Under the pieces are notes generated by a model. It saw only the letters and a list, made by a program, of their open reading frames with translations. It ran no database searches and was not told where the DNA came from. The translations under genes were made by a program, and so were the position numbers. Below are positions 11,350 to 32,549 of a DNA stretch of 64,000 bases, piece after piece. The stretch's first letter is position 1. The number at the start of each line of letters is the position of its first letter. Origin of the DNA: an uncultured Acidobacteriia bacterium (GTDB lineage Bacteria; Acidobacteriota; Terriglobia; Bryobacterales; Bryobacteraceae); assembly GCA_903900705.1 (NCBI GenBank), contig CAIUOG010000066.1:1-64000 (forward strand), given 5' to 3'.

Positions 11350-13386
11350 ATGTTGTATAAGAGTTTAGTGGGCGTCGACAGGAAGACCAGATCGCTTGTA
11401 ATGCTGACCGTGACGCTGGGAGTGTGCGCGTGGGCCGCGGGCGCGGGGGATTCCTACACGCCCGCCGAGCGCCGACACTGGTCTTTTCAGCCACGAGCCA
11501 ACCCCGCTCCTCCACAGTTCCAGAGTGCGGCCGACCGCGCCTGGGCCACCCAACCCATTGACCGCTTTGTTCTGGATCGCCTCAACAAAGCGGGTCTGAA
11601 GCCCGCGCCTCCGGCCTCCCGCCGCACCCTGATTCGCCGCGTTTATTACGACCTGACCGGTCTGCCCCCTTCGCCCGAAGAAGTGGAGGCCTTCGTCAAA
11701 GACGCTTCGCCCAACGCCTGGCCGAAGCTGGTGGACAAACTGCTCGACAGCCCGGAATATGCGGAACGCTCCGCGCAGCACTGGCTCGATGTCGTCCGTT
11801 TCGGCGAGAGTGACGGCTTTGAATACGACACGCACCGTTCCGACCTCTGGCGGTATCGCGATTACGTGATCCGGTCTTTCCGGGAGGACAAACCGTACGA
11901 TCAGTTTCTGCGCGAACAACTGGCCGGCGATGAAATGGCCGGGAACATCCCGTCATCGCCCGAGGAAAGCGAACTGCTGATCGCCAGTTCTTTCAACCGT
12001 CTGGGCCCGCTGCGCAAGAACGGCGGCAACCAGGACGCGGCCTATATCCGCAACGAGATGCTGATTGAGATGACGAACGTGGTCGGCTCCGCCTTCCTCG
12101 GCGTCACGCTCGGCTGCGCGCGCTGCCACGACCATAAATTCGACCCCATTCGTCAGAAAGACTACTACCGCATCCAGGCCTACTTCGCGAAGACGCGGCA
12201 CAGGGACATTCCCCTCTACTCGGCGGAAGAAGAAGCCGCCTGGAAGAAGAAAGACACAGCGATCGCGGCGGAGATTTCGCGGATGAAGAAGGCACTGCCG
12301 CTCGAAGATGGTCCGGAGCGCGCCGCCGGCGAGAAACTGCTGCAGAAGAAGCAGCTGGAGGTTCCCGAACCCCTGCCCGCTCTCACCGTGGTGGAGGATG
12401 ACCCGAAGCAGTTCACCCCCGTGCACGTGCTGACGCGTGGCAATCCCGACGCAACGGAAGACAAAGTGAGCGCCCGGCCGCTCGGCATTCTGCTGCCCGA
12501 AGGCACACCGGAACTTCCGGACGATACGCCAAAGCCCCGGCTCGCGCTGGCGAACTGGATTGCCGATCCGCGCAACCCGCTCACCGCGCGCGTGATGGTC
12601 AACCGCCTCTGGCTGCATCACTTCGGGCACGGCATTGTGGATACGCCCAATGACTTCGGCCGCATGGGCACGCGTCCCTCCAACCCGGAACTGCTGGACT
12701 ACCTGGCCAATGAATTCGTGGCCGGTGGCTTTCACATGAAACCGCTGCACCGCATGATCCTGCTGAGCCACACTTATCAGCAGGACTATGTGCCGGTGAT
12801 GTCCGCAGTGGCGAAGGAGAAAGATCCCGACAACCGCCTGCTGTGGCGCTTCCCCCGCCAGCGGCTCGATGCCGAGCAACTGCGCGACACTATCCTGACC
12901 GTGAGCGGTAAATTCAATCCGCAGGCGGGCGGCCCCAGCGTCATCGTTCCGATTGAACCGGAAGTGGTGGGGCTCATCTATAAACCTTCGCAATGGGTGG
13001 TGAATCCCGACGCGAATCAGTTCTATCGCCGCAGCATTTATCTGCTGGAAAAGCGTAATCTGCGGCTGCCGTTTCTGGATGTCTTCGACTCCCCCGACCG
13101 CCTGCTGAGCTGCGCCCGCCGCGAAAGCGCGACCCATGCGCCGCAGGCTCTGGAGTTGCTGAACGGGGCGTTCACGCGGGAGATGTCCCGGGCCTTCGCC
13201 GAACGGCTGCGGCGGGAAGCGGGCCCATCTCCGGCCAAACAGGTGGAGCGCGCCTGGGAACTCGCGCTCAGCCGCCCGCCGACGCCGCTCGAACGGGACC
13301 GCGCCTTGTCTTTCCTGGCCGCCAATCCCGCCGGCGAATTCACGCTGGCGATGTTCCTGATCAACGATTTTCTGTACGTGAACTAA
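11350..13386 (+). CDS. DUF1549/DUF1553 (PSCyt2/PSD1) secreted protein
   Basis: A 678-residue exported protein of the family expanded in Planctomycetes and Acidobacteria. The PSCyt2 (DUF1549) domain starts near residue 70 with YYDLTGLPPSPEEVEAF and HWLDVVRFGESDGF and contains CARCHDHKFDPI; the PSD1 (DUF1553) domain contains LANWIADPRNPLTARVMVNR and GHGIVDTPNDFG. The N-terminal PSCyt1 cytochrome domain found in many homologues is absent. An ATG at 11401 is an alternative start; the 11350 start gives a positively charged signal-peptide n-region, but TATAAG at 11356-11361 could be a -10 box favouring 11401. Function is unknown; pairing with DUF1501 is the typical arrangement. Confidence 0.9.
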   Translation: MLYKSLVGVDRKTRSLVMLTVTLGVCAWAAGAGDSYTPAERRHWSFQPRANPAPPQFQSAADRAWATQPIDRFVLDRLNKAGLKPAPPASRRTLIRRVYYDLTGLPPSPEEVEAFVKDASPNAWPKLVDKLLDSPEYAERSAQHWLDVVRFGESDGFEYDTHRSDLWRYRDYVIRSFREDKPYDQFLREQLAGDEMAGNIPSSPEESELLIASSFNRLGPLRKNGGNQDAAYIRNEMLIEMTNVVGSAFLGVTLGCARCHDHKFDPIRQKDYYRIQAYFAKTRHRDIPLYSAEEEAAWKKKDTAIAAEISRMKKALPLEDGPERAAGEKLLQKKQLEVPEPLPALTVVEDDPKQFTPVHVLTRGNPDATEDKVSARPLGILLPEGTPELPDDTPKPRLALANWIADPRNPLTARVMVNRLWLHHFGHGIVDTPNDFGRMGTRPSNPELLDYLANEFVAGGFHMKPLHRMILLSHTYQQDYVPVMSAVAKEKDPDNRLLWRFPRQRLDAEQLRDTILTVSGKFNPQAGGPSVIVPIEPEVVGLIYKPSQWVVNPDANQFYRRSIYLLEKRNLRLPFLDVFDSPDRLLSCARRESATHAPQALELLNGAFTREMSRAFAERLRREAGPSPAKQVERAWELALSRPPTPLERDRALSFLAANPAGEFTLAMFLINDFLYVN

Positions 13387-13406
13387 GACCCCGGTTAAAT
13401 AAGCCC

Positions 13407-14819
13407 ATGAGCGCCCACGCCAAACCGACACGCAGCCGCAGGGAGTTCCTCACCGACGCATTCTGCGGCTTTGGCTCTGTGGCGTTTGCGGCGATGCTGG
13501 CCGAAGAACAGGCCCGCGCGGCGTATTTGAATCCCCTCGCCGCGAAGCCGCCGCAGTTTGCGGCAAAGGCGAAATCGGTCATCGTGCTGTTCATGGCCGG
13601 CGGGCCGAGCCACCTTGAAACTTTCGACCCCAAGCCGCTGCTGAACAAGCTGGATGGTCAGCCGGTCCCGAAAGAGTTCGGTACCGCGAAACGGCAGTTC
13701 ATCAAGGGCCCGCCGCACCTGATGGGCACCAAACGCACGTTCAAACAGCACGGGCGGAGCGGCCTCTGGGTTTCAGATCTGCTGCCGCACACCGCGACCT
13801 GCGCCGACGATCTGGCCGTGATCCGCTCCTGTAAGTCCGATGCGTTCGTGCATTCCTCCGCGCAATACCAGTTCTTTACGGGGCGCATTATTCCCGGCTT
13901 CCCGAGCATGGGCGCGTGGGCGCTTTACGGTCTGGGTTCGGAGAGTGAGTCGCTGCCGGGCTACGTGGTGATGCCGGATCCCCGCGGCTCTATCGAAGCC
14001 GGACAGCCGGTTTATTCCAACGGTTTTCTGCCGTCGATTTATCAGGCCAATGTCTTTCGCCCCGGGAAAAAGCCGGTGCTGAATCTGGATATGCCGGCGG
14101 GCGTTTCCGTGGAACAGCGGCAACGCACGCTCCGGCTGGTGCATGATCTGGACAGTGCCCGGATGAGCCCGGATGACGACGAATTCGCGGCCCGCCTGAA
14201 CACCTACGACCTCGCGTTTAAGATGCAGACCGAAGCGCCGGCCGTATTCGATATCTCGCGCGAGTCGCAGGCCACACAGGAAGCCTACGGCGTGGGGCAC
14301 CCGGTGACTGACGACTTTGGCCGCCGCTGCCTGCTCGCCCGCCGCCTGGTGGAAAAGGGCGTCCGTTTCGTGGTGCTGGTAGCCGGTGGACCCGACGTAT
14401 CCCAATGGGACGCGCATGATGACATCGAAGAGAACCACCTCCGCATGGCGATGAAGACCGACAAGCCCATTGCGGGTCTGTTGAAGGACCTGAAACAGCG
14501 CGGGCTGCTCGATTCCACGCTGGTGGTCTGGGGTGGCGAGTTCGGCCGCACGCCCGAAGCGCAGGGCAAGGGCCGGGACCACAACAACACCGGCTACACC
14601 ATGTGGATGGCCGGCGGGGGCGTGAAGGGTGGCGTGGTGGCGGGCGCGACCGATGAGATCGGCCTGAACGCCGTCACCGAACCGCACCATCTGCGCGATA
14701 TCCACACCACCGTACTGCACCAGCTGGGCCTCGAACAGAACGCGCTCAGTTACCTCCACCAGGGACGCCGCGAAAGGCTCACCGAGGTGCAGGGCCAGGT
14801 TATCCAGTCGATTCTTTAG
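13407..14819 (+). CDS. DUF1501 Tat-exported sulfatase-like protein
   Basis: A 470-residue DUF1501 protein. A twin-arginine signal (RSRREFLTDAFCGFGSVAF) opens it, followed by the alkaline-phosphatase-like core: IVLFMAGGPSHLETFDPKP, the HSSAQYQFFTG segment, RRLVEKGVRFVVL, and VVWGGEFGRTPEAQGKGRDHN near the C-terminus. It lies 20 bases after the DUF1549/1553 gene and is almost certainly cotranscribed with it. The pair recurs across planctomycetes and acidobacteria, often suggested to act in exported polysaccharide or sulfate-ester metabolism, but no activity is established. Confidence 0.92.
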   Translation: MSAHAKPTRSRREFLTDAFCGFGSVAFAAMLAEEQARAAYLNPLAAKPPQFAAKAKSVIVLFMAGGPSHLETFDPKPLLNKLDGQPVPKEFGTAKRQFIKGPPHLMGTKRTFKQHGRSGLWVSDLLPHTATCADDLAVIRSCKSDAFVHSSAQYQFFTGRIIPGFPSMGAWALYGLGSESESLPGYVVMPDPRGSIEAGQPVYSNGFLPSIYQANVFRPGKKPVLNLDMPAGVSVEQRQRTLRLVHDLDSARMSPDDDEFAARLNTYDLAFKMQTEAPAVFDISRESQATQEAYGVGHPVTDDFGRRCLLARRLVEKGVRFVVLVAGGPDVSQWDAHDDIEENHLRMAMKTDKPIAGLLKDLKQRGLLDSTLVVWGGEFGRTPEAQGKGRDHNNTGYTMWMAGGGVKGGVVAGATDEIGLNAVTEPHHLRDIHTTVLHQLGLEQNALSYLHQGRRERLTEVQGQVIQSIL

Positions 14820-27918: not shown

Positions 27919-28422
27919 TTGCGGGTCGGGCTTCTCTCAGACACGCACGGCTTTCTCGACGACCTGATTTTCACCAAATTCGCCGAATGCGATGAAATCT
28001 GGCACGCCGGAGATTTCGGACCACCGGAGATTCTGGACCAGCTTCGCGCCTTCCGCCCTACCCGCGGAGTCTACGGTAATATCGACGGCCCGGACCTCCG
28101 CGCCAGCCTGCCTGAACACCAGCACTGGGATTGCGAAGGGCTGCGCGTCTACATGACGCACATCGGCGGCTACCCGGGAAACTACGACCGGCGCGCCAAA
28201 GCGGAAATCCTCCGTCACCGGCCCGGCCTGTTTCTGTGCGGTCACTCGCACATTCTGAAAGTGACCCGCGACCCGAACCTCGGCCTGCTTCACATGAATC
28301 CCGGCGCCTGCGGGCACCATGGCTGGCACCTGGTCCGGACCATTCTTCGCTTTACCGTTGAGGCCGGGAAGGTTTCGGCGCTCGAAGCCATCGAACTAGG
28401 CGCTCGCGGCCGCCGCAAGTAG
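27919..28422 (+). CDS. YfcE/MJ0936-type metallophosphoesterase
   Basis: A 167-residue cytoplasmic phosphodiesterase of the YfcE family. All five metal-binding blocks are visible: LLSDTHG, IWHAGDFG, VYGNIDG, YMTHIGG, and LFLCGHSHI, followed by MNPGACG. The start is a TTG abutting the TAG stop of the SIS gene, so the two are translationally linked. The last 27 bases overlap the end of the convergent decarboxylase. The natural substrate is unknown. Confidence 0.9.
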   Translation: MRVGLLSDTHGFLDDLIFTKFAECDEIWHAGDFGPPEILDQLRAFRPTRGVYGNIDGPDLRASLPEHQHWDCEGLRVYMTHIGGYPGNYDRRAKAEILRHRPGLFLCGHSHILKVTRDPNLGLLHMNPGACGHHGWHLVRTILRFTVEAGKVSALEAIELGARGRRK

Positions 28423-29853
28423 ACTCCGGCCCAGCTGCCGCAGCAGTCCCAGCGTCTCTTCCACCCCCGCTTTCGTCACCATATGGCTGGCAATACACGC
28501 TCGCAGCACCTGCCTGCCCTCCAGCACAGTGCCCGATATCAGCGCGCGCCCATCCTCCATGAGCCGCATTTCGAGGTCTTCGTTGAGCCTGTTCAGGTCA
28601 ACGTCCACCCCCGGCGGCGCATAGCGGAAACAGCAGATGCTCAGCACCGGCTCGCCCATCAGCTCGAAATCCGGCGCTTCCTCCACCAGCCGGGCCAGAT
28701 GCCGGGCCAGTTCAAGGTGCCCGCGAATCATGGCGGTGTAATGCCCCAGGCCATACTGCCGGAGCGCCACCCACACCTTCAATGCCCGGTCTGTGCGGCT
28801 GAGTTCAAAACCGCACTCGTACTGATTCTGTTCCGCCCCCATGGCGCCCCGCAGATAGGCCGGAACCAGGCCAAACGTATCGCTCAGGTCCGCCCGGTCG
28901 CCAACCAGAATACAACCGGCCTCAAAAGGCACATTCAGCCACTTGTGCGGATCCACCGTGAGCGAATCGGCCCGCTCGATTCCCCGGAACAGGTGTCGCG
29001 CCTCCGGCACAATGGCGGCCAGTGCGCCGTACGCGCCATCCACATGGAACCACAAATCATGCCGCCGCGCGATATCCGCCAGTGCGTCCAGCGGGTCGAT
29101 GGACCCTGTATCCACGGTGCCGGCATTTCCCACCACACAGAACGGTCGGCAGCCGTCGTCGATGTCGTGTCGGATCGCCCGAACCAGCAGGTCCAGCCGA
29201 ATCCGCTGGTGTGAGTCCACCGGAATCAGGCGCAGCGATTCCGACCCGAGCCCCAGCATTTCCACGCTGCGCGTGAAACAGGAATGGGTCTGTGAGGAGG
29301 CATAGACCGTCAGGCGAGGATGCCCGTACAAGCCTTCTTTCCGAACGTCCCAGCCAGCCCGCCGCACCCTCGCCACAGCCAGCGCGAAGAGGTTCGCGGT
29401 GGAACCGCCGGAGGTCACGTACCCGGCCGCTTCATCGGAAAATCCCGTCATGCTCCCCAGCCAGCGCGTCACCGTCGTTTCAATCCGGCAGCTGCCCGGC
29501 TGATTTTTCCACGTGGTGGGACGGAGTTTGATCGCGGCGACCAGGGCCTCCAGCATGGCAGGCAAGGGCGTGGAAGCGGTCAGCACATAGGCCATTTGGC
29601 GGGGGTGGTTCGGGTTCCCGGCGGCCGGCAGGAGATGGTTTTCGAGGAAATCGAGAATCTGGCCGGGGTCCGCGCCATCAATCGGCACGGGTCCGCCGAA
29701 AAGGCTTTCCATCCGCTCGGTGGTCTGTGCCGGCGGAAAAGGCGGCCGGCGGGCGGGGCCGGCAAATTCTTCGGTAATGAGGTCGATGATCCGGTGGCCC
29801 AATTCCCGGATGACCGCGGGATCCATCTCCAGCGTCACGAGATCAGGTGACAT
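28396..29853 (-). CDS. Group II PLP-dependent decarboxylase (aromatic-amino-acid/tyrosine decarboxylase type)
   Basis: A 485-residue fold-type I decarboxylase, probably converting an aromatic amino acid to its amine and CO2. The PLP lysine is K304 in VDPHKWLNVPFEAGC; the ring-stacking histidine is in SSQTHSC near 190, and the PLP-pyridine aspartate in WFHVDGAYGA near 272. N-terminal PRQMAYVLTAST and TTWKNQPGSCRIE segments are typical. The ATG at 29853 is chosen; a GTG directly before it at 29856 is possible. It starts 3 bases after the acyltransferase stop, implying cotranscription. The amino-acid specificity is not readable. Confidence 0.88.
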   Translation of the reverse strand: MSPDLVTLEMDPAVIRELGHRIIDLITEEFAGPARRPPFPPAQTTERMESLFGGPVPIDGADPGQILDFLENHLLPAAGNPNHPRQMAYVLTASTPLPAMLEALVAAIKLRPTTWKNQPGSCRIETTVTRWLGSMTGFSDEAAGYVTSGGSTANLFALAVARVRRAGWDVRKEGLYGHPRLTVYASSQTHSCFTRSVEMLGLGSESLRLIPVDSHQRIRLDLLVRAIRHDIDDGCRPFCVVGNAGTVDTGSIDPLDALADIARRHDLWFHVDGAYGALAAIVPEARHLFRGIERADSLTVDPHKWLNVPFEAGCILVGDRADLSDTFGLVPAYLRGAMGAEQNQYECGFELSRTDRALKVWVALRQYGLGHYTAMIRGHLELARHLARLVEEAPDFELMGEPVLSICCFRYAPPGVDVDLNRLNEDLEMRLMEDGRALISGTVLEGRQVLRACIASHMVTKAGVEETLGLLRQLGRSLLAAAASA

Positions 29854-29856
29854 CAC

Positions 29857-30960
29857 TCACCGCCCTTGTTTCAGCATTCTGTACGCGAGCGACTTCGAAA
29901 GATTCAGCAGGAACTTGGCCGCCAGTTCGGCTCGGGACGTCAGCACCCGGTCGAGCGTTCGGTCGTCCAGCACCAGCAGCCGTACCAACGGGCTGGCCGC
30001 AAAGACGTCCGCGGTTCGTTTCGTGTCCAGCAGCAGCGCGAATTCCCCGAACAGTTCTCCCGCTTTGAGATGCGCCACCGTCTTGCCGTTGGCGCGGACG
30101 TCCACGCTCCCGTCCAGAATTACGAAGGCCGTCCGGGTTCCCTGGCCCTCCAGAATCACCTGCTGGCCCTCTGCGCATTCGAGAATCTGGCTGCGTTCAA
30201 GAAATGCCGCCAGTTCCTCTTCCGAAAAGCCCTGAAAGGCGCCAACCGGCTCGCTGGCGCGGCTCAGGACGCCGAACGTCTCCGCCCATTTCTCCCCTTC
30301 GAGCGCGGCTCCGCTGGCCACCGGCGCTTCCGCGGGCAGCAGGGAACTGATGCGCGCACAAAGTTCCGGCCGGTCCGCATGCTTCGGAAAGTAGCGCAGC
30401 AGAGGCGACCGGATGGAACGCAGATGCGCCACGTCATGCAGAGAAAACAGCAGCGGCACCATGACGCCAAAGCCGGGCTGGTCAAATACCGGAGCATACG
30501 GACGGAACCCGAGGCTTTCATACAGGTTGAGCAGGTGCGGCTGGCAATCGCAGAACACCAGATCCACCCCGCGCCCCGTCAGAAAAACCGCGCTCTCCAC
30601 CATCATGCGGAAAGACAGCATGGAACTGCGGAACTTCTCCCGCACCAGAAACCGGATATTGATCGCCATCCGTTCACGAGGGACGACCGGAAGGAACCGC
30701 GCCACCTCGAAACCATGCTCGAAATGCGGCGGGAAAGGCCGCTCATCGCCAATCAGCATTCCCATGGTTCCGGCGAGTTCGCCGTCCACCGTGGCATAGA
30801 GCAGATGGGAGCGTGCAATGGCGTCATCGACCACGATTCTCTTTTCATGGTCGGCATCCTCTCGCAGGGTGCCCATTTCTTCGCAGAACACTTCGTAAGC
30901 CAGGCCATAACAGGCCTGCCGCTCTTCTTCGTTGGCAATCTTGATCAGGATTTCCGGCAT
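29857..30960 (-). CDS. FeeM-like N-acyltransferase fused to a cyclic-nucleotide-binding domain
   Basis: A 367-residue two-domain protein. Residues 1-200 resemble N-acyl amino acid synthase/PEP-CTERM-type acyltransferases of the GNAT superfamily (YGLAYEVFCEEMG, EVARFLPVVPRER, MMVESAVFLTGRGVDLVFCDC, LNLYESLGFRPY). Residues about 243-350 form a CNB domain whose phosphate-binding cassette is FGEFALLLDTKRTA at 304-317, with G305, E306, R315 and T316 all present, so real ligand binding is plausible. The Arg-Thr pair resembles cGMP-type pockets. The order GNAT then CNB is opposite to mycobacterial cAMP-regulated Pat. It is the upstream partner of the decarboxylase. Confidence 0.8.
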   Translation of the reverse strand: MPEILIKIANEEERQACYGLAYEVFCEEMGTLREDADHEKRIVVDDAIARSHLLYATVDGELAGTMGMLIGDERPFPPHFEHGFEVARFLPVVPRERMAINIRFLVREKFRSSMLSFRMMVESAVFLTGRGVDLVFCDCQPHLLNLYESLGFRPYAPVFDQPGFGVMVPLLFSLHDVAHLRSIRSPLLRYFPKHADRPELCARISSLLPAEAPVASGAALEGEKWAETFGVLSRASEPVGAFQGFSEEELAAFLERSQILECAEGQQVILEGQGTRTAFVILDGSVDVRANGKTVAHLKAGELFGEFALLLDTKRTADVFAASPLVRLLVLDDRTLDRVLTSRAELAAKFLLNLSKSLAYRMLKQGR

Positions 30961-31037
30961 GGGGTCTCAATGTTGGGCGGCGCTGGGGGTAGAACTGTTC
31001 CGCTATCCTAACACCGCCGCCATGCGGCACACCGCCG

Positions 31038-32549
31038 CTAACCCTGTACCACCACCCGCAACTGGCGAGCAATATTGTTCATCACCGCCGCCTGGGAAGC
31101 CATCTCCTGGCTTGCGGCGGCCGTCTCCTCGGAACTCGCGGCGCTGTTCTGGATTGTGTCCTGCATCTGCACCAGCGCCAGAGAAACCAATCCCATACCC
31201 TGTGCCTGATCCTCGCTGCCCAGATTAACTTCGTCCACCAGTTTCCGCGCCCGGGAGGAACTCGTCGCGATCGCGTGAATTGCCATGGAAGTCCGCTCCA
31301 ACTCGACGCTCCCGGCATTCGAAATGTTGATGGACTCCTCAATCAGCGGCGCCGTCTCTCTTGCCGCCTGGGCGGACCGGTGCGCCAGATTGCGCACTTC
31401 ATCGGCCACCACGGCAAACCCCGCGCCAGCCTCTCCCGCCCGGGCCGCTTCCACCGCCGCATTGAGCGACAGGATGTTCGTCTGGAAAGCGAGTTCATCG
31501 ATCACACGAATAATCCTGCCTATATTTCTGCTCGACGCCTGAATCTCCGCCATTGATCGGCTCATGGCCTCAATCGCGGTCGTACTTTCCCGGACCTGCC
31601 GATCCACCTGGCCCATCTCGACCGCGGCCTCTCGTGAGTGTTCCGCATTGGCGCGCGTCGTACCCGCGATCTGCGAGGTGGAAGCCGTGGTTTCTTCCAG
31701 AGACGCGGCCTGGCGACTGGTTGCAAACGCCATCGACTGGTTCGAACTCGAAATCTGGTTGACTGCTCCGGTGACCTGGTCGGAACTGGAGGAAATCGCG
31801 TCCACCAAAGTCATCAGGCGTTTGCTCAGCCGCCCGATCAGGAAGTAAACGCCAATCCCGATCGCCCCCGCCAGCGGAATCAGCCAAACCGCAGCCTGCA
31901 CCATACCCGCCTTCACGTGGTCATCCACCCGTGTCAGCTTCGAGCGCAGCAGAAAGACTCCGTGACGGTCTCCCTCGCGCCACCCCTCCATCGGAAGGCC
32001 GAGGATATCCTTGCCATCGGCAGTGACGCTCGTCGCCGGGTCGCCATGGCAAACCATACAGTCTCCGCTCAGAATGATCGGCCGACCGTAGATTGCCTCG
32101 TTAGTACTCTCGTCAACTTCGAAGAACTCGCCCAGCTTTTCGCCGTCCATCCGGCTCAGAATACGGTCTTCCTGTTCGTTGGGAGAATTCTTCGGGTTGC
32201 GCGGATGCCGGGCCGGAATACGGAATTCGTACCCTTCGTGCCTGGCAACTTCCGCGATCGAATTCCATGCCGCAACCACCGGCACGGTCTGGTAGAGTTT
32301 CGACTGCCGGTAGTCCGACGACCCCGCCGCATCCGCCTTCAACACCGCCTCATCGAACACTTTGAGGTTGCGCATGCCGGAGACCGACTGGCGGTTATTC
32401 TCCGCGCTCAGCAACGTCGCCCGCATCGTGTCACGGATCATCTCGATCCCCTGACGCCGGATCACCGCCCTCTGAATGGTGAGTCCGGTCAGAGTGGTGA
32501 TGGCGATGGAAGCCAGTGAGACGAGTAGAATCCTCGTTCCTAAAACCAT
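31038..32549 (-). CDS. Methyl-accepting chemotaxis protein with haem-type DUF3365 sensor domain
   Basis: A 503-residue transmembrane chemoreceptor. TM1 is near 6-25; the periplasmic domain (about 30-210) is Tll0287/DUF3365-like and has a c-type haem motif, CMVCH at C164/C167/H168; TM2 is near 218-238; the cytoplasmic part is a methyl-accepting coiled coil with the signalling tip [38 protein letters not shown]. The classical HAMP is short or divergent. GGAAGG lies 10 bases before the ATG. A redox or gas stimulus is inferred. No che genes are nearby in this window. Confidence 0.88.

Follow-up and report, generated by a model that had tools for sequence, protein, structure and literature searches.

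A cyclic-nucleotide-binding acyltransferase fusion adjoined by a pyridoxal-phosphate-dependent decarboxylase in Bryobacteraceae: a candidate system for nucleotide-controlled N-acyl amine synthesis

The window analyzed here is a stretch of 64,000 nucleotides (positions 1 to 64,000 of contig CAIUOG010000066.1, assembly GCA_903900705.1) from an uncultured Acidobacteriia bacterium of the family Bryobacteraceae which encodes, in two adjacent genes on the minus strand, an acyltransferase fused to a cyclic-nucleotide-binding (CNB) domain and an amino acid decarboxylase. The fusion gene (29857..30960, minus strand; 367 amino acids), delineated by open reading frame (ORF) calling and domain matches, encodes an N-terminal GNAT domain that resembles N-acyl amino acid synthases (NAS) and acyl-homoserine lactone (AHL) synthases (residues ~1-195), a linker (~211-240) and a C-terminal CNB domain (~240-367). 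The N-terminal domain matches the FeeM family (PF21926; 30457..30915, minus strand, residues 16-168) and the C-terminal domain matches the cNMP_binding family (PF00027; 29938..30177, minus strand, residues 262-341; 45.4 bits with a cut-off of 27.5); the latter match includes the phosphate-binding cassette FGEFALLLDTKRTA (residues 304-317). The AlphaFold model of the fusion protein has a mean predicted local distance difference test score (pLDDT) of 85 and a predicted template modeling score (pTM) of 0.64, with the linker being poorly predicted. The second gene (28396..29853, minus strand; 485 amino acids, or 486 with the GTG at 29856 as start codon) encodes a group II pyridoxal phosphate (PLP)-dependent amino acid decarboxylase (Pyridoxal_deC, PF00282; 230.9 bits with a Pfam cut-off of 27).

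At the junction of the two genes (TGA-GTG-ATG, 29851..29859, minus strand), the stop codon of the fusion gene is followed by two alternative starts of the decarboxylase gene, so that 3 bases separate the genes if translation starts at the ATG and none if it starts at the GTG. A Shine-Dalgarno-like sequence, AAGGGCGG, judged by eye, is located just upstream of the decarboxylase start, within the end of the fusion gene. In three related genomes (G003, G014 and G017; genomes and loci are designated here by G and L numbers), the orthologous genes overlap by ATGA. We propose that the two genes form a small operon in which the decarboxylase is co-translated with the acyltransferase, and this arrangement is part of the explanation favored below. 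An earlier note on this DNA described a FeeM-like acyltransferase with a complete cyclic-nucleotide pocket, followed after 3 bases by a decarboxylase; both Pfam matches are indeed above their cut-offs, the cassette is present, both ORFs have the expected coordinates, and the 3-base gap holds with the ATG start.

Among 101 genomes, comprising the window's own genome and its relatives, the fusion was detected at no less than 62% identity (about 62%) in G003, G014, G017 and G018 in addition to the window's genome, i.e., in 5 of the 19 genomes of the genus, and a search of 237 genomes of the family yielded the same five. The sixth match in the genus and family searches, from G009, has 201 residues and 27% identity; this protein is FeeM-like but lacks the CNB domain. 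The earlier note stated that a lack of adjacency in relatives would refute its proposal; within the genus this applies to G018 alone, the decarboxylase adjoining the fusion in four of these five genomes (the window's and three of the other four). Decarboxylase matches as such are widespread (79 of the 101 genomes at E<=1e-60), but only four show at least 60% identity (100, 66, 61 and 61%), and all four adjoin a fusion gene; the other matches listed are at most 43% identical. These four decarboxylases form a single clade with 100/100 support and the branching order window,(G003,(G014,G017)), which is consistent with the identities between the acyltransferases. Both genes show a ratio of nonsynonymous to synonymous substitution rates (dN/dS) of less than 1 throughout the computed pairs, with many of the dS values exceeding 1.

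When compared with the whole window by blastn (E<=1e-10), the 19.7-kb stretch of G003 and the 19.2-kb stretch of G014 each yield a single block of similarity that spans both genes (28485-30961 and 28487-30918, respectively). Because these blocks cover the two genes only, the pairing reflects more than chance. The flanking genes differ among three settings, namely the window, G003, and the G014/G017/G018 group. In G014 and G017, the pair is followed by a DUF3667 gene that overlaps the end of the decarboxylase gene (L058:13547-14401 and L057:12911-13765), and in G018, such a gene directly follows the fusion gene (L059:8364-9269); the window and G003 have a different gene at this position. The G018 locus is syntenic with that of G014 (80% identity over 4.5 kb upstream, 82% in the fusion gene and 73% in the DUF3667 gene) and lacks the decarboxylase alone; the best homolog elsewhere in the G018 genome is only 33% identical, and a permissive tblastn search for a remnant gave only four short matches, the best with an E-value of 0.91. 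Since the outgroups, G003 and the window, possess the decarboxylase, its loss in G018 is the simplest reading.

Outside the genus, the fusion also occurs in Acidobacteriota and Myxococcota. At the level of the phylum, 396 genomes yielded five matches (E<=1e-15), namely the window's genome, G335, G295, G469 and a weaker one in G465. A scan of named genomes gave seven loci, in four metagenome-assembled genomes (MAGs) of the genus, Hyalangium versicolor, a Myxococcaceae MAG and an Acidobacteria MAG, with both domains present in the last three. Among 147 genomes of the class that includes Hyalangium, there were 21 matches, 16 to the CNB part only and 5 of full length, in Hyalangium versicolor and the Myxococcaceae MAG (G667, G668), G750, G751 and G706; G750 and G751 were taken as full length from profile and blastp coverage. 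In total, the analysis covered 15 genomes with the fusion, five in the genus and ten more distant. The genes of the relatives are longest-ORF calls, and the number of candidates scored in each genome is limited, so that the absence counts hold at the E-value limit of each search. The CNB domain of L077 scores below the Pfam cut-off (24.6 vs 27.5), and the N-terminus of L084 (~25 residues) looks mis-started or frameshifted.

In none of the stretches fetched from the ten distant genomes is such a decarboxylase adjacent to the fusion; the contig in G335 comprises only 3445 bases, with a downstream flank of ~0.5 kb. Given that the fusion is never found beside this decarboxylase there, the pairing is best viewed as a genus-level trait; the fusion probably predates the pairing, with the decarboxylase being a partner seen so far in this genus only. 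Other genes adjoin the fusion in the distant genomes. Directly upstream of the fusion, G295 and G469 encode a haem-oxygenase-like iron enzyme (PF14518), whose gene overlaps the fusion in G295 (L075:9328-11093) and lies 14 bases away in G469 (L076:9005-10776), and in G706, a methyltransferase gene is located 6 bases upstream. In three myxobacterial loci (L082, L083 and L143), a DUF72 gene lies downstream of the fusion, and in two of these (L082 and L083, from the Myxococcaceae MAG and Hyalangium versicolor), a response regulator gene is oriented divergently to the fusion.

The best reading of these observations, to which we assign a probability of roughly 40%, is that the fusion is a cyclic AMP (cAMP)-gated N-acyltransferase similar to NasP, served by a dedicated, amine-supplying decarboxylase. 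Under the route that we infer, the decarboxylase would convert an amino acid into an amine, and the acyltransferase would then transfer a fatty acyl group, probably from acyl-acyl carrier protein or acyl-CoA, onto that amine to yield an N-acyl amine; the C-terminal CNB domain would bind a cyclic mononucleotide, most likely cAMP, and, in the manner reported for NasP, turn the acyltransferase on or off. This order of steps follows from the chemistry of the decarboxylase. PLP-dependent decarboxylases form an aldimine with the free alpha-amine of the substrate, so decarboxylation must precede acylation, and the variant raised in the earlier note, in which the decarboxylase acts on an acylated amino acid, is rejected on this chemical basis.

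The N-terminal domain of the fusion is compatible with this reading. Its model aligns with FeeM (2g0b_C) over 169 residues with a Z-score of 17.2, a root-mean-square deviation of 2.7 and 12% identity, and with AHL synthases over 163-178 residues with Z-scores of 15.2-16.2. Several features, however, weigh against this reading. The FeeM score of the fusion itself is barely above the threshold (29.3 vs 27 bits, a weak match; two further FeeM-family proteins encoded in the same genome have higher scores of 111.6 and 88.5 bits), small GNAT proteins such as 5jph are equal to FeeM in the fold comparison (Z 17.3 over 141 residues), and a plain GNAT, ElaA, is the top profile match among solved structures. 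Furthermore, the second residue of the WEWSR motif of the AHL synthase BjaI, a glutamate, shares an alignment column with a glutamate of other FeeM-like proteins, whereas 13 of the 15 fusions, including that of the window (Ile100 in the INIR motif, residues 100-103; 30652..30663, minus strand), have Ile, Val, Met, Thr or Phe in this column. Only the divergent fusions L077 and L097 retain the glutamate; two wrong-frame ORFs (L095_1623_2945 and L096_1495_2577) were omitted from the count. PMC4897644 reports that mutation of Glu103 of Nas354, which is equated there with Glu95 of FeeM, abolished the phenotypes.

The weight of the missing glutamate is reduced by L114 (L139:7036-7638), which is encoded in the same genome, belongs to the FeeM family with the strong score of 111.6 bits and likewise lacks this residue, so that its loss need not imply loss of activity. 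The site could not be tied directly to Glu95 of FeeM: neither the profiles A4, A8 and A9 nor the two FeeM-family proteins of the genome gave an alignment to 2g0b across it, and this structure was listed only by A8, over a short stretch away from the site. The enzyme of the window is best described as NAS-like rather than as a proven NAS. A tblastn search of a plasmid collection with the fusion gave no match. The L114 gene overlaps a gene for a fatty acid hydroxylase (PF04116; L139:6278-7638 for both genes, contig G000:C15) and L114 itself has no CNB domain; a hydroxylated N-acyl product is possible for this locus. The third FeeM-family protein of the genome (L140:7487-8158, contig G000:C39; 88.5 bits) possesses the glutamate motif and is encoded downstream of sulfatase and 3-keto-disaccharide hydrolase genes. 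Proteins of 527-556 amino acids that combine an N-terminal FeeM-like domain, with the glutamate motif, and a long C-terminal part (L115, L117, L119, L121, L124, L126 and L130) occur in several families of Acidobacteriota.

The model of the sensor domain matches CNB domains of the CRP, HCN and PKA types (Z 14.8-18.4), and Gly301, Gly305, Glu306 and Arg315 are invariant in all 11 aligned fusion proteins, which makes a functional nucleotide pocket likely. The earlier note took the Arg-Thr pair in this pocket as a hint at cyclic GMP (cGMP). Within the genus, the residue after Arg315 is indeed Thr in all five fusions, but among the 11 aligned proteins it is Thr in seven, Ile in two, Met in one and Ser in one, and this lack of conservation in the wider family weakens the cGMP argument. 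In addition, the genome of the window encodes three class III cyclase domains. The first of their two specificity positions is always Lys and the second either Asp or Thr, a pattern that we take to be that of adenylate cyclases. As judged from these residues, cAMP is a better guess than cGMP for the ligand of the predicted CNB domain.

The combination of CNB and GNAT domains is also that of the mycobacterial protein acyltransferase Pat, and the fusion could accordingly be a cAMP-regulated enzyme of this kind, with the decarboxylase or another protein as its target. The equal fit of the N-terminal fold to small GNATs and the ElaA match would agree with such an activity, and the NCBIfam model of Pat does hit the fusion with 33.7 bits. 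This score, however, is far below the cut-off of 460 and covers the CNB residues 241-326 only; the 163-178 residues of the matched core are in line with FeeM and the AHL synthases; and, as pointed out earlier, the domain order is the reverse of that in Pat, in which the CNB match is at residues 18-109 of the 4ava chain. We consider a Pat-like function very unlikely.

The decarboxylase model (pLDDT 90, pTM 0.90) belongs to group II of the PLP-dependent decarboxylases. His190, Asp272, His303, Lys304 and Tyr333, whose active-site roles we presume from DOPA decarboxylase, are invariant in the four pair-linked enzymes, and the last four of these residues also in all 21 wider homologs. By alignment, the catalytic-loop tyrosine is Tyr333, in a PxYL motif, and not Tyr345. 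Tyr at this position, as opposed to Phe, separates decarboxylases from aldehyde synthases. The counterpart of Tyr333 is Tyr in 4obu and 7xin but Phe in the phenylacetaldehyde synthase 6eei, and this alignment points to a decarboxylase more than to an aldehyde synthase.

The aromatic specificity suggested in the earlier note fares less well. The best sequence matches are the tryptophan decarboxylase of Ruminococcus gnavus (4obu), DOPA decarboxylase (7xin) and a plant aromatic enzyme (6eei, whose entry title reads phenylacetaldehyde synthase and which the sequence table names tyrosine decarboxylase 1). In the fold ranking, by contrast, tryptophan decarboxylase (4obv, Z 51.7), the lysine decarboxylase DfoJ (5o5c, 51.5) and the glutamate decarboxylase GAD65 (2okk, 51.0) are nearly equal, with Pseudomonas DODC (48.4) and animal aromatic amino acid decarboxylases (at most 46.2) ranking lower. 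Moreover, RPTTW in the pair-linked enzymes aligns by profile with VGFSW in 6eei and LGLSW in 7xin, such that Arg111 and Thr113 replace hydrophobic residues in a stretch to which we assign a pocket role by presumed analogy with DOPA decarboxylase. RPTTW was found only in the four pair-linked enzymes among 33 homologs compared, not in the other 29. These features would fit an enzyme that acts on a substrate such as glutamate, aspartate, lysine or diaminobutyrate and releases a small non-aromatic amine or omega-amino acid, in which case the lipid would be an acylated gamma-aminobutyric acid, beta-alanine or diamine. Given that the top sequence matches all act on aromatic substrates and that a difference of two residues does not predict the substrate, this variant is doubtful.

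A different challenge comes from the gene neighborhoods. The fusion is intact in G018 and in the ten distant genomes without an adjacent decarboxylase, which is thus not required for the role of the fusion there, and this independence and the missing glutamate are the strongest points against the favored reading. The decarboxylase might be co-transcribed for another purpose, for example, to compete for or dispose of the amino acid that the fusion uses, and the report that NasP acylates phenylalanine (PMC5643525) would fit such an arrangement. Nevertheless, the decarboxylase follows the fusion in three genomic settings within the genus (the window, G003 and G014/G017), and this recurrence suggests a joint function; the fusion also lacks the glutamate of its NAS-like relatives. 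We regard an unrelated purpose of the decarboxylase as unlikely. The earlier observation of the gene pair is confirmed, and its interpretation as a pathway is partly supported.

Among characterized systems, the closest in concept appears to be NasP (ABB76600, as given in PMC11631085), a metagenome-derived NAS that, according to PMC4897644, which cites Clardy and Brady 2007, is activated by cAMP. The fusion is likened to NasP by the description of the latter as a cyclic mononucleotide-activated N-acyl amino acid synthase, not by sequence; the difference is that the acceptor of NasP is phenylalanine and that the passages on NasP mention no decarboxylase partner. According to PMC4897644, Nas343 and Nas354 similarly consist of an N-terminal NAS, a linker and a C-terminal putative nucleotide-binding domain, but this domain is PilZ, a putative binder of cyclic di-GMP, rather than CNB, the catalytic Glu103 is kept, and the product is N-acyltyrosine; the authors presume that no biosynthetic operon surrounds these genes. 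FeeM shares the fold of the N-terminal domain, whereas the 2g0b chain has no CNB domain. FeeM and FeeG, an oxidative decarboxylase of N-acyl tyrosines (PMC8762209), also combine an acyltransferase with a decarboxylating enzyme on related compounds, but FeeG acts oxidatively on the N-acyl product whereas the PLP-dependent decarboxylase must act ahead of acylation.

The remaining comparisons are looser. The AHL synthases BjaI (5w8c), TofI (3p2h), LasI (1ro5) and RpaI (6wn0) share the fold, and BjaI is also matched by profile, but the glutamate of BjaI is missing from the fusion of the window, and nothing tested points to AHL synthesis. Pat (4ava) shares the presence of CNB and acetyltransferase domains in one chain; the domain order is opposite, and the CNB domain alone matches the fusion. 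The R. gnavus tryptophan decarboxylase (4obu/4obv) is the top solved relative of the decarboxylase by both sequence and fold (30% identity) and differs in the pocket stretch, with lysine and glutamate decarboxylases being its equals in the fold ranking. The simple amides of Xenorhabdus are made by a decarboxylase and an acyltransferase. These phenylethylamides and tryptamides (Bode et al. 2017, cited in PMC6305712 and PMC6935581) are bacterial N-acyl aromatic amines, and PMC6935581 reports that such compounds compete for AHL receptors. The earlier note regarded a second-messenger-controlled two-enzyme lipid signal as new. The control of synthases by nucleotides is already on record, NasP being the cAMP-gated case (PMC4897644), and the combination of an acyltransferase and a decarboxylating enzyme has a precedent with different chemistry. 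Within the literature searched, the apparently new element is the linkage of a PLP-dependent decarboxylase to a CNB-fused NAS-like enzyme. No paper on this pair was found in that literature, most subscription journals being outside its reach.

Two other loci of the window deserve mention. The gene upstream of the fusion, on the same strand and separated by a 77-base gap (31038-32549, minus strand), encodes a methyl-accepting chemotaxis protein with a Tll0287-like domain and a CxxCH motif (DCMVCHG), possibly a haem-binding sensor; no matching ORF is present in the G003, G014 and G017 stretches. A PSCyt2/PSD1 and DUF1501 gene pair (11350-14819, plus strand), from large families, is located 15 kb from the fusion pair. 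Proteins with 46% and 42% identity to its products are encoded next to the acyltransferase in the G003 stretch, which is probably a coincidence within a large paralogous family.

Taken further, the fusion may represent a platform of Acidobacteriota and Myxococcota, a cAMP-switched NAS-like acyltransferase with the family glutamate exchanged, that recruits different partners and, in this genus, forms a second-messenger-gated two-enzyme N-acyl amine pathway; we hold this possibility only tentatively. If it is correct, the partners would be the decarboxylase in this genus, the PF14518 enzyme in G295 and G469, and the methyltransferase in G706. The pairing with the decarboxylase, together with its natural loss in G018, gives a defined guess on the acceptor, and with the fusion present not only in uncultured acidobacteria but also in a named myxobacterial strain, Hyalangium versicolor H56D21, the control of such an enzyme by cyclic nucleotides becomes testable.

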